Positions 4,579 through 8,576 of a stretch of 8,591 bases of DNA are shown piece by piece. Made by a program: the position numbers and the translations under genes. The stretch is from JALXCG01 sp026991065 [NCBI: Gemmatimonadota bacterium] (lineage in GTDB: Bacteria; GCA-2686955), in assembly GCA_026991065.1 (NCBI GenBank), contig JALXCG010000075.1:1-8591 (forward strand), written 5' to 3'. Under the pieces are notes generated by a model. It saw nothing but the letters and a program-made list of their open reading frames with translations, was not told the DNA's origin and searched no databases. How positions within the stretch are numbered: the first letter of the stretch is position 1; each line of letters starts with the position of its first letter.

Positions 4579-5430
4579 GTGCCCGGAACCATCCATCTCG
4601 CCGACAACCTGCCGATCCTGCGCCGACTCCCGGAAGCGAGCGTCGACCTGATCTACATCGACCCCCCCTTCAACACCGGCAAACGCCAGGAGCGGCGCCG
4701 CATCCAGGTGCGCCACGACCCCGTCGCCGGCGACCGCACCGGCTTCCAGGGCCGGCGCTACCGCACTGTCGACCTCGGCACCTCGGGCTGGGACGACAGC
4801 TTCGACGACTTCCTCGCCTTCCTCCACCCGCGCCTGGTCGAGGCCCACCGCATCCTCCAGCCCCACGGCAGCCTCTTCCTGCACATCGACTATCGCGAAG
4901 TCCACTACTGCAAGGTCGCCCTCGACCGCATCTTCGGCCGCGACTGCTTCCAGAACGAGATCATCTGGGCCTACGACTACGGCGCCCGCTCCCGCAAGCG
5001 CTGGCCGGCCAAGCACGACAACATTCTCTGGTATACCCGCGACCCCCGCCACTACACCTTTAACTACGACGCCATGGACCGCATCCCCTACATGGCTCCG
5101 GGCCTGGTCGGCAAAGAGAAGGCCGCTCGCGGCAAAACCCCGACCGACGTCTGGTGGCACACCATCGTCAGTCCGAACGGCAAGGAAAAAACCGGCTACG
5201 CCACCCAAAAGCCCCTCGCCATCCTCGACCGCATCATCAAAATCCACTCCAACCCCGGCGACCTGGTCCTCGACTTCTTCGCCGGCAGCGGCACCACCGG
5301 CGCATCCGCCGCCCGCCTCGGCCGCCGCTTCCTGCTCATCGACCACAACCCCGAGGCGCTCGCCGTAATGCGCCGCCGCCTCGCCCCCTACACCCCCGAA
5401 ATCATCTGTTCCACGCCCGAAACCTCATGA
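4579..5430 (+). CDS. Site-specific DNA methyltransferase (N4/N6, beta class)
   Basis: Predicted 283-residue enzyme that transfers a methyl group from S-adenosylmethionine to an exocyclic amino group in DNA, probably N6 of adenine judging by DPPF. Motif IV DPPF is at 28-31 ([11 protein letters not shown]). The SAM-binding motif I FAGSG is at 234-238 ([11 protein letters not shown]), preceded by the motif X-like [14 protein letters not shown]. The order IV, then X and I near the C-terminus, defines the beta class (N6_N4_Mtase, as in CcrM relatives). The [11 protein letters not shown] segment between them is also typical of the family. Length is normal for a compact member and no extra recognition domain is seen. 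No restriction endonuclease is in the window, so it may be an orphan or housekeeping methylase. Its stop overlaps the ATG of the next gene (ATGA). Codons end strongly in C, unlike rluD downstream. Confidence 0.93.
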
Positions 5431-5858
5431 AAAAGAGACTCTCCGCGCTTCTTCTTCTGCTCCTTGCCGCCCTCTACAGTTACCTGCAGAAACCCGCCAC
5501 CTCCGGCGACACCCCGGCCGCCGCCTCCGCCAGCGCCATCGCCCGCGCCTACCGGGACCACCAAAGCAACCTCCAGGTCAGTGGCAGCGGCGTGGTCCAG
5601 GCACTCCTTCCCGACGACCGGAGCGGCAGTCGCCACCAGAAGTTCCTGCTCCGCCTCCCCGATGGCCAAACCCTGCTGATCGCCCACAACATCGATCTCG
5701 CCCCCCGCATCCCCGCCCTGCGGAAAGGCGACACCGTCCAGTTCTGCGGCGAATATGAATGGAACGAAAAGGGCGGCGTGGTCCACTGGACCCACCACGA
5801 TCCCGCCGCTCGCCACACCCCCGGCTGGCTTCTCCACAAAGGGCAGAAATACCAGTAA
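5427..5858 (+). CDS. DUF3465-like exported protein
   Basis: Predicted 143-residue protein with an N-terminal signal or anchor: MKKR followed by a Leu/Ala-rich hydrophobic core to about residue 20. There is no lipobox Cys, so it is either cleaved or membrane-anchored facing the periplasm. The mature part (about 48-143) reads as I recall the DUF3465 family: LLPDDRSGSRHQKF (60-73), LLIAHNIDLAPRI (83-95), a GDTVQFCGEYEWN segment (101-113), GGVVHWTHHDP (116-126) and a C-terminal KGQKYQ. The repeated His and Asp residues (HQKF, AHNIDLA, HWTHHD, RH) suggest a metal or nucleic-acid site, but the function is unknown and an OB-like beta fold is only a guess. The start ATG overlaps the methyltransferase stop by 4 nt (ATGA), so the two are co-translated. 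Family assignment is from memory of its motifs, not from a search. Confidence 0.85.
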   Translation: MKKRLSALLLLLLAALYSYLQKPATSGDTPAAASASAIARAYRDHQSNLQVSGSGVVQALLPDDRSGSRHQKFLLRLPDGQTLLIAHNIDLAPRIPALRKGDTVQFCGEYEWNEKGGVVHWTHHDPAARHTPGWLLHKGQKYQ

Positions 5859-5871
5859 TTGTCCCTTTTTT
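5838..5871 (+). terminator. Candidate Rho-independent terminator after DUF3465 gene
   Basis: AAAGGGCA (5838-5845) can pair with TGTCCCTTT (5860-5868), giving six pairs, a one-base bulge (T5862) and two more pairs around a 14-nt loop. The T run continues to 5871. The stem overlaps the stop codon of the DUF3465 gene (TAA 5856-5858). The stem is modest in G+C and the loop is large, so strength is uncertain. It would separate the methyltransferase operon from the gene at 6258. Confidence 0.45.
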
Positions 5872-6145
5872 GAAGTGCACCGCCGGTGCCCTCCCCGCGC
5901 GCTGCTTTTCGCCCCGGTGCAACCCGCGCCGCGCACCGATCGGGTCCTGGCCGAAGCCGCCGCACCGGCCACCGCTTCCGCTCCCGGCTCATCTTGCGCC
6001 GTCGCCGTCCCGCCCCGTCGCGGCCCCGGTGGCGAAGTTCTCCCTTGCCCGCGCGCCGGTCGCGCCGCCCCGACCCCCGACAGCAGCGCCCCTTCCGCTG
6101 TGTTATCTTTTGCCCCACAGATCGCTTGCAACCACCCATCCGCCC

Positions 6146-6171
6146 CGATCCCCGGGGCGGTCCCGGGGTCG
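6146..6171 (+). repeat. Inverted repeat, hairpin upstream of gene at 6258
   Basis: CGATCCCCGGG (6146-6156) pairs with CCCGGGGTCG (6162-6171): ten base pairs with one bulged T (6149) and a 5-nt loop. It lies 87 nt before ATG 6258. No T run follows, so it is not an intrinsic terminator on the plus strand. Sequence this G+C-rich forms such stems by chance fairly often. Confidence 0.5.
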
Positions 6172-6249
6172 CGAGCGCCACCCGGGGCCCGCAGCCACGT
6201 CGCCGGAGTGCGCCCGGCTGGTGCGGCTCCTCATCTCAACCCTGGAACT

Positions 6250-6253
6250 GGAG
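6250..6253 (+). promoter_or_regulatory. Shine-Dalgarno site for gene at 6258
   Basis: GGAG, 4 nt before ATG 6258. It supports this start over any upstream extension of the same open frame, whose translation is Arg/Pro-rich and featureless. Confidence 0.5.
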
Positions 6254-6257
6254 ACCC

Positions 6258-6686
6258 ATGTTCGTCCCAATGCTCTTTGCCGCCGCCCTTGCCCTCACCC
6301 CGCAGCCCCAGAGCGCTCCCGCGAGCGTCGAAAGCCGGCTCGCCGCCCTCGAAGCCCGCGTCGCCGAGCTGGAAGCGCGCGCCACCCAGAAGGCCGGTCC
6401 GGTGCTCGCCTATGACAGCGGCTGGGTGAGCGTCAAGAAGGGGGAGGAGATCCAATTGACCCACGGTGTCGGCGGCGACCAGGATCACTACATCGTCCTC
6501 TTCGACACCCGCAGTCAGACTCACGGGCAGAATCACATCGGCTACGGCGGCCGCGCCCTGGACGGCATCACCGCCGGCTACACCGGAGCCTACTATTACG
6601 GTCTCGACACCGAGACGGTGACCCTCCGCCGCGCCACCGACGACACCTTCTGCCACGAACTGCGCCTGCGCATCGTCACCTACTGA
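6258..6686 (+). CDS. Small predicted secreted protein, short coiled coil plus unknown beta-rich domain
   Basis: I do not recognise this 142-residue protein. Residues 1-20 look like a short signal peptide (hydrophobic MFVPMLFAAALAL, then QSA as a possible cleavage site). Residues 24-42 form a clear heptad coiled coil: V24, L28, L31, V35 and L38 sit at alternating four- and three-residue spacing with Arg/Glu between them, the kind of segment that trimerises. The C-terminal 95 residues (from about GPVLAYDSGWVSV) are rich in Gly, Tyr, Thr and His, with alternating hydrophobic positions (HYIVLFDTR, TVTLRR, ELRLRIVTY) suggesting a beta sandwich. DSGW followed by LTHGVGG resembles domains at the ends of phage tail or collagen-like surface proteins, but that is only an impression. 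Codons end mostly in C, as in the methyltransferase block. The start is supported by GGAG at 6250. Confidence 0.72.
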   Translation: MFVPMLFAAALALTPQPQSAPASVESRLAALEARVAELEARATQKAGPVLAYDSGWVSVKKGEEIQLTHGVGGDQDHYIVLFDTRSQTHGQNHIGYGGRALDGITAGYTGAYYYGLDTETVTLRRATDDTFCHELRLRIVTY

Positions 6687-6691
6687 GGTGC

Positions 6692-6779
6692 CGCGCTGAA
6701 GGGTGGCCCCGGGTGTGGTGCGGGATCGGCTGCTCGAACCCGCGGCCGGTCCTGCGGGCCGACCTGGCGCGCTGAAGGG
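6692..6779 (+). repeat. 12-bp direct repeat pair
   Basis: CGCGCTGAAGGG occurs at 6692-6703 and at 6768-6779, offset by 76 nt, in non-coding DNA directly after the stop of the gene at 6258. Both copies are followed within about five bases by a GGCCC or GGCCCG string. It may be chance or the trace of a small duplication. Confidence 0.4.
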
Positions 6780-6816
6780 GGGCTGGCCCGGTTCCGGCCG
6801 CGTGGTGGGGAGAGTT

Positions 6817-6852
6817 CTGCCGGGCGGGTTGTGCGGCCGCGCTGCCCGGCAG
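6817..6852. repeat. Perfect 9-bp inverted repeat
   Basis: CTGCCGGGC (6817-6825) is exactly complementary to GCCCGGCAG (6844-6852), with an 18-nt loop that itself contains the 8-bp palindrome GCGGCCGC (6833-6840). There is no T run on either side. It lies 55 nt before the larger hairpin at 6908. Confidence 0.55.
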
Positions 6853-6907
6853 GCCGCCGGCGCGGGGCGATTATGGCGCAAGGCGGGGTGGAGCCAAGGG
6901 CCGGAGA

Positions 6908-6973
6908 TCTTCGCGGAAGCCGCCGGTTCGGCATGAAGAGTGCCCGGTGCGCAACCGGCGGTCGCCGCGAGGA
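6908..6973. repeat. Long two-stem imperfect inverted repeat (66 nt)
   Basis: The arms 6908-6928 and 6953-6973 match over 21 positions: 17 Watson-Crick pairs, two possible G-T wobbles and two mismatches. The outer stem (6908-6916 with 6965-6973) and the perfect inner stem CCGCCGGTT/AACCGGCGG (6920-6928 with 6953-6961) are separated by a symmetrical 3-by-3 internal loop. The 24-nt apical part can form a further GGCA/TGCC stem (6930-6933 with 6941-6944). It ends 86 nt before the -35 of the DksA-like gene. The function is unknown: small RNA, REP-like element or operator are all possible. Confidence 0.6.
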
Positions 6974-7059
6974 GCCGAAAATCGCGCAGCGGGCAAAGCT
7001 CATCCCCGCAAAATGACGAATCGAGGGGAGAGCCGCCGGCGGGGAGGCGCCGGGCGGAT

Positions 7060-7089
7060 TTGACGATTCCCACATGGTGTTGCTAAAAT
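7060..7089 (+). promoter_or_regulatory. Sigma70-type promoter for the DksA-like gene and rluD
   Basis: TTGACG (-35, 7060-7065) and TAAAAT (-10, 7084-7089) are separated by 18 nt, and TGC directly before the -10 makes it an extended -10. Each hexamer departs from consensus at one position. Transcription would start near 7096, leaving a leader of about 57 nt before ATG 7153. Confidence 0.7.
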
Positions 7090-7109
7090 CCAAGGTTACC
7101 ACTGTTGAC

Positions 7110-7128
7110 GACTCCAACTCCTGGAGTC
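7110..7128 (+). promoter_or_regulatory. Leader hairpin with an anti-Shine-Dalgarno segment
   Basis: GACTCCA (7110-7116) and TGGAGTC (7122-7128) form a perfect 7-bp stem with loop ACTCC, just downstream of the predicted transcription start. The overlapping segment CTCCTG (7118-7123) is exactly complementary to CAGGAG (7141-7146), the ribosome site of the gene at 7153. The leader could therefore switch between a free and a masked ribosome site. The dyad could instead be a DNA operator. Confidence 0.45.
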
Positions 7129-7141
7129 CCCTCCATCGAGC

Positions 7142-7146
7142 AGGAG
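7142..7146 (+). promoter_or_regulatory. Shine-Dalgarno site for the DksA-like gene
   Basis: AGGAG, 6 nt before ATG 7153. It fixes the start there rather than at the upstream in-frame TTG 7105. Confidence 0.7.
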
Positions 7147-7152
7147 ATCATC

Positions 7153-7542
7153 ATGGCGTTGACCTCTGAGGAACTCGCGCAGATTCGCGAGAAACTGGCC
7201 AAGCAGCGCCGCCAAGGGGAAAAGAAGCTGAAGTTCCTCGAAGAGTCGATTCTGCAGAAGCAGGATCCGGCGGCGCGCGACGGCGTTTACTATTCGCAGC
7301 ATCCGGCCGAGATCGGCACCGATGCCAATGAGCGGGAAAAGTTCTATCGCATCGCCACCAGTGAGCACCGTTTCCTCTACCGCGTCGATGAGGCGATGCG
7401 GCGGATCGAGGCGGGCGAATATGGCAAGTGCGAAAACTGCGGCGAGGATATTCCTTTCAGTCGGCTTTTGGTGGTGCCCACCGCGCGCACCTGCGTGGTG
7501 TGTCAGGAAGAGGCGGAGCGGATCCGCTTTCAGGGCTGGTAG
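7153..7542 (+). CDS. TraR/DksA-family zinc-finger transcription regulator
   Basis: Predicted 129-residue cytosolic protein of the family that reaches into the RNA polymerase secondary channel and alters promoter kinetics, in DksA together with ppGpp. The N-terminal half is helical and charged (residues 4-35 and 58-88), forming the coiled-coil arms. The C4 zinc finger has Cys93-x2-Cys96-x17-Cys114-x2-Cys117, the same spacing as E. coli DksA. Counting back from the first Cys, the position of the DksA tip motif DxxDxA is occupied by HPAEIG (50-55), so the tip residues essential in DksA are absent. HPAEIGTD resembles the Gram-positive YteA-type branch. It has its own promoter and a structured leader, and rluD starts 2 nt after its stop, so the two form an operon. 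It is securely a family member, but calling it functional DksA would be premature. Confidence 0.92.
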   Translation: MALTSEELAQIREKLAKQRRQGEKKLKFLEESILQKQDPAARDGVYYSQHPAEIGTDANEREKFYRIATSEHRFLYRVDEAMRRIEAGEYGKCENCGEDIPFSRLLVVPTARTCVVCQEEAERIRFQGW

Positions 7543-7544
7543 GG

Positions 7545-8576
7545 GTGCCCAACGAAGATGCGCCACGGGCGCTGCGGTCGAGTGATCTCCGCCGCTACAT
7601 CGAAGTTCGGGAAGAGGACGAGGGGCAGCGGCTGGACGCGTTCCTGGCGGAGCGGGTGGCGGGAGCGAGCCGGTCGAAGATTCAGCGGATGATTCGCGAT
7701 CGCTGGATCACGGTGGATGGGGTGCAACTGCGCAACAACACCATGCTGAAGGCGGGGGCGGTGATTCAGGTGGTGATGCCGCCGGCCGATCGGGGGGATC
7801 TGGTGGCCGAGGATCTGCCGCTGGATATTCTCTATGAAGATGAAGAGATGCTGGTGGTGAACAAGGCAGCGGCGATGGTGGTGCATCCGGCGCGCGGGAA
7901 CTACACCGGCACGCTGGTGAATGCGCTGCTGCATCATTGCGATTCGCTGCCGGTGATCAAGGGGGATACGCGGCCGGGAATCGTGCATCGGCTGGACAAG
8001 GGGACCAGTGGGCTGCTGCTGGTGGCGAAGACCGATCTGGCGCAGGCGGCGCTGTCGCTGCAACTGAAGATGCGCAAGGTACGCAAGTTCTACCGGGCGA
8101 TCACCTGGGGGCGGATGGAGCCGGCCGAGGGGGCGATCGATTTTCCGATCGGGCGGCATCCGAAGAATCCGAAGTTGATGTCGGTGCGCAAGGAGCCGGG
8201 ACGCGGGCGGCCCTCGCTGAGTGTTTACCGGACGCTCGAGGATCTGGGGCGTTTCAGCGATGTCGAGGTGGATCTGCGCACCGGGCGAACGCACCAGATC
8301 CGGGTCCATTTTCGCCACATCGGGCGGACGCTGCTGGGGGATCCGGCGTATGGGGGGCGCACCACCTATCTGGCTGATCTGCCGCGCGAGGCGCGGGCGG
8401 TGGTGGAGGCGGTGATCGCTGATCTCGGGCGGCAGGCGCTGCATGCCTGGCGGATCTCGTTTCGCCACCCGGGGAGCGGCGCGCCGATGAGTTTCGAGGC
8501 GCCGCTGCCGGAGGATATGAGGCTGGCGCTGGAGCGGCTGCGGGCGGCGCGCGACGCCGGGCTGTGGCGCTGGTGA
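7545..8576 (+). CDS. rluD: RluD-type 23S rRNA pseudouridine synthase
   Basis: Predicted 343-residue enzyme that isomerises uridine to pseudouridine in 23S rRNA. RluD modifies helix 69 (E. coli positions 1911, 1915, 1917) during assembly of the large subunit. An S4 RNA-binding domain is at about 26-76 (GQRLDAFLAE, RSKIQRMIRDRWITVDG). The RluA-family catalytic domain is at about 92-325, with the active-site Asp151 in GIVHRLDKGTSGLLLVAKT, the YEDEEMLVVNK strand (98-107), HPARGN (114-119) and RTGRTHQIRVH (245-255) followed by LLGDPAYGG. Length matches the family. GTG 7545 is the only sensible start: it lies 2 nt after the stop of the DksA-like gene, with AGGG 9 nt upstream inside that gene. RluC is the nearest alternative name, but the overall pattern favours RluD. 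Codons end strongly in G. Confidence 0.94.
   Translation: MPNEDAPRALRSSDLRRYIEVREEDEGQRLDAFLAERVAGASRSKIQRMIRDRWITVDGVQLRNNTMLKAGAVIQVVMPPADRGDLVAEDLPLDILYEDEEMLVVNKAAAMVVHPARGNYTGTLVNALLHHCDSLPVIKGDTRPGIVHRLDKGTSGLLLVAKTDLAQAALSLQLKMRKVRKFYRAITWGRMEPAEGAIDFPIGRHPKNPKLMSVRKEPGRGRPSLSVYRTLEDLGRFSDVEVDLRTGRTHQIRVHFRHIGRTLLGDPAYGGRTTYLADLPREARAVVEAVIADLGRQALHAWRISFRHPGSGAPMSFEAPLPEDMRLALERLRAARDAGLWRW

Follow-up and report, generated by a model that had tools for sequence, protein, structure and literature searches.

A hairpin in a Gemmatimonadota contig belongs to one copy of a dispersed, intergenic, box-bearing repeat of about 130 bp

The stretch analyzed here (the window, 8,591 nucleotides at full length) carries, between an ORF at 6258-6686 and a zinc-finger gene of the DksA/TraR type, a hairpin that lies ~86 bases upstream of a promoter-like site. 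This hairpin falls within one copy of a repeated element; a second copy starts 7 bases past the stop codon of a DUF3465 gene (ORF 5427-5858, plus strand), pointing towards it (Table 1). No tRNA or tmRNA was found in the window, and a comparison of 6690-7160 with plasmid DNA gave no match. The sole terminator-like site in 6680-7600 is at 7572-7560 on the minus strand, away from the hairpin, and the promoter-like site is downstream of the hairpin; we thus rejected both the terminator and the leader readings, as the original prediction had done. Elsewhere in the window, a far stronger predicted hairpin (-55.6 kcal/mol per 66-mer) lies at 280-375 within a hybrid histidine kinase gene, and a further stable fold (-45.7 kcal/mol) lies at 6688-6800, just behind the ORF at 6258-6686, where GCGCTGAAGGG occurs twice as a near-direct repeat. 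A genome search with the upstream intergenic DNA (6684-6884) gave no second family (best other match, E 0.0025).

Table 1. Repeat copies, their boxes, and neighboring features in the window
Feature	Position	Strand	Basis or remark
Copy 2 (B-type)	5866..5994	-	R2 57 bits, model positions 7-136
Copy 2 box 4, CGGTGCA	5876..5882	-	Sequence; A-tract at 5866-5871
Copy 2 box 3, TGCACCG	5915..5921	-	Sequence
Copy 2 box 2 core, TTCGGC	5950..5955	-	Sequence
Copy 2 box 1 core, GAGCC	5986..5990	-	Sequence
Copy 1 (A-type)	6882..7014	+	Holds the reported hairpin; R1 65.2 bits; R2 41.2-41.3 bits, model positions 2-134 of 137
Copy 1 box 1, GC-N4-TG-GAGCC-AAGGG-C	6883..6901	+	Logo and column counts, 60 and 96 copies
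Reported hairpin	6908..6973	+	Spans 3' end of spacer 1, box 2 and part of the middle; copy-specific
Copy 1 box 2, GCCGG-TTCGGC-ATGAA	6922..6937	+	Logo and column counts, 60 and 96 copies
Copy 1 A-type 3' end, GC ... GCTCATCCCC..AAAA	6993..7014	+	Motif search in 3' parts of copies; 19 A-type rows
Promoter-like site	7060..7089	+	TTGACG-18-TAAAAT, TG before -10; consensus match only; downstream of copy 1, outside the element
DksA/TraR-type zinc-finger gene	7153..7542	+	PF01258, E 1.6e-14; neighbor of copy 1, outside the element

The hairpin had been described as two long stems plus an apical stem, with 17 pairs and two wobbles, and this description is borne out by the arms themselves (6908-6928 and 6953-6973, with 17 Watson-Crick and two G-T pairs) and by RNAfold. 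The proposed geometry of two 9-bp stems around a 3-by-3 loop survives in part: RNAfold retains the internal loop and a 9-bp stem, and makes the loop 2 by 2, because a G-T pair is counted, and the second stem 10 bp, below a 4-bp apical stem (-42.3 kcal/mol in total). The suggested comparison with shuffled sequence favors the hairpin (z -4.40; mean of dinucleotide shuffles, -27.9 kcal/mol; 1 of 200 shuffles as good). A scan of 66-mers (sampled every 3 and every 6 bases, overlapping 66-mers being merged) found four other places in the window with values of -40 kcal/mol or lower (two fall below -42.3, including one at -55.6) and 14 places at or below -42.3 kcal/mol in 224.6 kb from other stretches of the same genome, i.e., ~1 per 16 kb. 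For a hand-picked site, the hairpin is only moderately beyond chance. The hairpin, though real, is particular to a single repeat copy and does not define the unit. As a fold it is unremarkable; what merits study is the repeat.

The window's own genome is a short-read bin of 4.14 Mb in 902 contigs, 83.8% complete. A DNA search of it with 6880-7000 returned two partial matches elsewhere (83% and 72% identity), and patterns drawn from these gave further candidates, with weak controls (7 matches vs 2 for the reversed pattern, and 40 vs 28); the family rests on profile searches with two models, not on those patterns. The sequence-only model R1, made from 12 copies out of 14 candidates picked by eye, gave 52 matches at E < 0.01 in the genome, against a best match of E 0.0129 in one other genome of the same family; 53 matches, all known before, came from R1 in the first 158 kb of the genome stretches collected. 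With model R2, built from 56 of 60 anchored copies, at least 92 copies of at least 31 bits were found in the genome (31-65 bits across the profile searches), the next matches scoring 28.5 bits and below and the best in one other same-family genome, from a sister genus, 19.2 bits; R2 added one copy near a known one (L092:1713-1847). Scoring covered 150 of the genome's 5195 first-look candidates, so that 92 is a minimum. For alignment A4, a search of 95 genome stretches and the window with R2 yielded 96 matches (92 of at least 31 bits), while one match within a long gene (C671, L115) was judged false and left out of both R2 training and A4. Most matches (88 of 96) span at least 110 of the 137 model positions, and four of the remaining eight are at contig ends. 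Pairwise identity among copies averages 50% and reaches 71% at most, in a short-read bin that can lose near-identical copies. A dispersed family of a ~130-base element with nearly a hundred intergenic copies is near certain. The advice to seek further copies in the genome was thus well placed, the hairpin lying in one of ~95 dispersed intergenic copies.

Outside this genome, an exact-pattern scan of genome contigs gave nine single matches in unrelated organisms, none of which exceeded 15.7 bits with R1; an Eisenbacteria genome, the single one pursued from that scan, reached 17.7 bits at best. Viral contigs held no match to either of two exact patterns, and BLAST against 60 genomes, including the window's own, gave one short match in each of three others (E 0.0015-0.0045). 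These searches beyond the family were by exact pattern or BLAST, by which diverged families elsewhere could be missed. A word-based search of the open-licence literature, using words and not sequences, returned no published description of the element.

Some copies are unusual in their assembly context. For at least seven of the 92 strong copies, the nearest contig end is no more than 30 bases away (C703, C696 at both ends, C803, C721, C131, and C828), as if some copies broke the assembly. Behind the copy at the end of contig C828 (L104, 1580-1685), the sequence upstream of that copy recurs in reverse complement as far as the contig end, apparently through an assembly artefact. In L213 (contig C740, 2113-2323, minus strand), the model finds the middle of one copy two times over, as though a portion of that copy had been duplicated or interrupted.

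The copies, about 130 bp in length, are built from short boxes at nearly fixed spacing. Across 96 copies, the consensus of the 5' part reads gC-N4-tgGAGCC[GAT]R-nn-S-C, ~22 variable bases, GCnSnTTCGGC[GCA]aGaa, and again ~22 variable bases. The 3' part comes in two types: in the B-type (67 copies), a G-rich stretch follows GC-ngn-TGCnCCG-ntGcg and leads to GC-N6-GG[TA]GCA and then an A-tract. The A-type, with 19 members (copy 1 of the window among them), has ACTTCATCCC..AAA, or some variant of it, as its 3' end; the other 10 of the 96 are unclassed owing to gaps or contig ends. Both types thus share box 1 (GC-N4-TGGAGCC-R) and box 2 (GCNSNTTCGGC), with box 3 (TGCNCCG) and box 4 (GG[TA]GCA plus the A-tract) confined to the B-type; box 1 with box 2, and box 3 with box 4, make up rough inverted repeats. 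In 26 B-type copies, boxes 1 and 2 are 33-36 bases apart and boxes 2 and 3 31-35; boxes 3 and 4 are 39-42 bases apart in 23 of the 26, the other three values stemming from the automatic choice of box 4. Four alignment columns are invariant in all 96 copies, and most spacer columns hold almost no information; this conservation of the boxes is partly ascertained, because the copies were found by box-scoring models and decayed copies would be missed. A matrix for boxes 1-2, trained on 59 copies, was applied to the loci of 35 others; its 33 matches were all known copies, with no solo halves. Box 3 was present at 29 and box 4 at 30 of these 33 places (base rates, 4% and 14%). Because the model used to find those copies already contained boxes 3-4, this result checks consistency and is not an independent discovery.

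The distance between boxes 1 and 2 varies by single bases, so that no reading frame is shared, and a coding reading was rejected. The element strand is G-rich irrespective of the orientation of the neighbors. Outside the A/B difference, the strongest long-range couplings join columns 8 and 54 (GG 39, TC 33, GA 10) and, likewise, columns 8 and 57 (GA 42, TG 31), in bases that do not pair; at short range, columns 2 and 8 are coupled and pairable in 87% of copies (CG 52, CT 9, GT 8). The couplings thus define subtypes: the identity of the base preceding GAGCC is tied to that of the bases following TTCGGC, as would be explained by one protein contacting both sites or by descent from few founders.

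Placement is almost wholly intergenic, with 3 of 96 copies overlapping a gene in the codon-usage gene calls made for this analysis. Relative to the element, the upstream/downstream gene strands are same/same in 25 copies, same/opposite in 21, opposite/same in 14, and opposite/opposite in 12, with a contig edge in 24; the surplus of co-directional copies (25 vs 12) has p 0.047. The downstream neighbor is on the same strand in 44 of 96 copies and on the opposite strand in 38 (contig edge, 14), and copy 1 lies upstream of the promoter-like site; on these grounds, a cis-regulatory leader RNA was rejected. Median distances to gene ends (73 and 57.5) are shorter than those to gene starts (247 and 176). 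Downstream genes are diverse, e.g., for citrate synthase, the gamma/tau subunit of DNA polymerase III, an Nramp transporter, and a sigma factor; a regulon was rejected on this diversity, 21 of the 39 listed same-strand downstream genes having been scanned (two without a Pfam match at threshold). Four close pairs of copies (in L127, L092, L190, and L192), 34-77 bases apart, are all inverted, three head to head and one tail to tail.

The candidate of a small structured RNA did not hold up when carried over to the family. The reported arms do not covary (p 0.88 in 57 copies and p 0.97 in 96), and other copies, judged on rows offering 14 or more comparable pairs, keep the pairing at 32-68% of the comparable hairpin positions. 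As a class, the copies barely beat shuffled sequence: taken as 130-mers (59 of 63 matches), they have a mean fold z-score of -0.47 for the element strand (intergenic controls, -0.21) and of -0.31 for the opposite strand (controls, -0.09), making them slightly more stable than controls on the element strand (p 0.036) with no difference on the other (p 0.25). None of 94 copies outside the window has a 66-mer, sampled every 6 bases, at or below -42.3 kcal/mol; the sampling is coarse, the window's own hairpin having registered only -40.5 kcal/mol at every third base.

RNAalifold predicted no pairs on the 96-copy alignment. In an alignment-free test of pairing between a copy's own segments vs segments swapped between copies, boxes 1-2 gave p 0.96 in a wider window (96 copies) and boxes 3-4 gave p 0.75 within the B-type; a conserved helix was rejected. 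A first run of this test (57 copies and 13 tests, including a control) had given p 0.006 for the box 1-2 core, with an excess of only -0.14 kcal, p 0.007 for boxes 3-4, and p 0.039 for the 3' end, and a second run (18 tests) gave p 0.007 for one A-type test on 19 copies; we attribute the nominal first-run results to A- and B-type copies having been pooled, the narrow window of the box 1-2 core having been run once. The variable position of boxes 3/4 shows no covariation (T/T 22, A/T 22). One column pair of boxes 1/2 is helix-like: column 15 is A or G only, opposite an invariant T, giving A-T or G-T in 95 of 95. Rfam gave no match for the window at gathering thresholds, for 5800-7150 at E up to 5, or for 20 loci at E up to 1, and a known, Rfam-described RNA was rejected accordingly. 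No A+T-rich promoter signal was found upstream of the copies, nor any rRNA in the genome bin.

Signs of a mobile element were sought as well. Among 86 copies, neither target-site duplications (32 of 200 swaps as good for direct repeats) nor terminal inverted repeats (176 of 200 for inverted) were in excess. The Y1 (IS200-like) transposase family PF01797 had no match in the window's own genome, which at 83.8% completeness could be missing such a gene, and PF07282 had none there or in one other same-family genome; IS200/IS605 or TnpB-derived ends thus had neither a TnpA nor a TnpB gene to go with them in this 83.8%-complete genome.

We propose, with a probability of roughly one half, that the family is a CIR/ERIC-class element whose boxes are read as double-stranded DNA by a putative protein, the copies having spread in the past and been kept. 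Some mobilizing activity would have carried the family through intergenic DNA; a candidate protein would read the boxes as double-stranded DNA; and the copies would since have been kept as binding platforms, which would leave the boxes constant and the spacers drifting. What the analysis shows is the family with its minimum copy number, the boxes, the position between genes, and that a search for RNA pairing common to the copies found none; the protein, the past mobility, and the selection on individual copies are what we infer. In favor of this proposal, we count the at least 92 copies against a best of 19 bits in the other same-family genome, the mostly near-complete matches, the invariant columns against diverged spacers, the recovery of copies by boxes 1-2 with boxes 3 and 4 alongside, the intergenic placement in no single orientation, the lack of conserved RNA pairing, the non-pairing couplings, and the diverse neighbors. 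Against it, we count (i) a set of observations leaning towards RNA, i.e., the A/G restriction of column 15, the G-richness of the strand, the p values of 0.036 for stability and 0.047 for co-direction, and the nominal pairing p values, and (ii) the partial ascertainment of box conservation, as well as the possibility that the coupled subtypes reflect descent rather than contact. Of the three candidates originally offered for the hairpin (a small structured RNA, a REP-like mobile palindrome, or a binding site), a putative binding site fits best.

A purely selfish, nonautonomous mobile element (MITE-like or REP-like), its boxes being sites for a lost or unassembled transposase or recombinase and its host function nil, is possible, if on the doubtful side. 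It would account for the dispersal between genes in any orientation, the uniformly inverted close pairs, and the absence from the sister-genus genome (best 19 bits), and the couplings 2/8 and 8/54 near the 5' end resemble the guide-cleavage site pairs of IS200/IS605 and REP elements as presented in an excerpt of PMC8266576. Such an element would sit less easily with the lack of a duplication or terminal-repeat signal in 86 copies, with near-invariant boxes beside diverged spacers (subject to ascertainment), with PF01797 and PF07282 not being found (though in a genome only 84% complete), and with a maximum identity of 71% (though a short-read bin can lose near-identical copies). Still less probable is a set of ~95 small RNAs or transcribed RNA elements acting as RNA through fixed boxes and variable, guide-like spacers: the box-and-spacer plan at nearly fixed spacing, the strand-specific G-richness, and the A or G opposite the invariant T of boxes 1/2 are what one might expect of it, whereas the missing promoter signal, the pairing tests as a whole without covariation, a class fold near that of shuffles, the occurrence on both strands relative to neighbors, and the lack of an Rfam match all speak against it. 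That the hairpin itself is the functional unit of the locus, e.g., as a regulatory site of the dksA-type gene, is very improbable; its fold z-score of -4.4 and its position ~86 bases upstream of the promoter-like site would suit that role, but its arms are neither conserved nor covarying in other copies, equally stable 66-mers turn up roughly every 16 kb, and Rfam holds no match.

Small interspersed intergenic repeats are usually regarded as decaying mobile DNA, with copies closely similar to one another. Here, instead, spacers are diverged and boxes near invariant, few members are truncated, and no near-identical pairs occur among the copies found, a pattern that, if robust to detection bias, would point to selection on individual copies and provide ~95 natural replicates in one genome of an isolated uncultured lineage for finding the ligand of the boxes and the role of the element. 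We hold it unlikely that the family consists either of ~95 intergenic platforms with four boxes under selection and an as yet undescribed dedicated reader protein, or of box-and-spacer RNAs with working variable spacers; to our knowledge, neither kind has been described in this form from a bacterium. Platforms of this sort, if real, might serve chromosome organization, segregation, or the marking of DNA.

Among known systems, REPs are characterized, in the excerpts drawn on here, as extragenic, many-copy elements with a real stem, a link to a Y1 transposase, and GTAG before the inverted repeat (PMC3733652, PMC8266576, PMC2817692); they measure 20-40 bp, and GYAG, GYRG, GTRG, GTMG, and GTGG are quoted as variants of GTAG (PMC3733652). 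As judged against these excerpts, our element resembles the REP/RAYT (TnpA-REP) system in being extragenic and many-copy and perhaps in its GGAG-like tetranucleotide ([GT]GAG before CC) preceding the inverted repeat; it differs in its ~130 bp, its four boxes, the lack of a shared stem, and the Y1 transposase not found. The REP-like candidate is thus right as to a repeated extragenic element and, on length and on the transposase not found, not borne out as to the REP family. CIR elements of Caulobacter, Brucella, and other alphaproteobacteria are, in the part of PMC2229807 consulted, ~110 bp long, abundant, and intergenic, not lying in genes, with two inverted-repeat arms joined by a linker, no terminal inverted repeat, a conserved GANTC, and high conservation between species. 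The element described here is likewise intergenic, many-copy, and without a terminal-repeat signal; unlike what that account gives for CIR, its arms find no support as shared helices, its copies were detected in a single genome, and GANTC (in 24 of 96 copies) is rarer than in the flanks (2.08 vs 4.30 per kb). ERIC/IRU elements of enterobacteria appear in the same source as a dispersed 127-bp intergenic repeat with terminal inverted repeats and target-site duplications; compared by that description and not by sequence, the present repeat is similar in size, intergenic, and dispersed, but with neither terminal repeats nor duplications detected. Set beside these partial accounts, the element is best read as a lineage-restricted small interspersed intergenic repeat, distinct from REPs and nearest in plan to CIR and ERIC.
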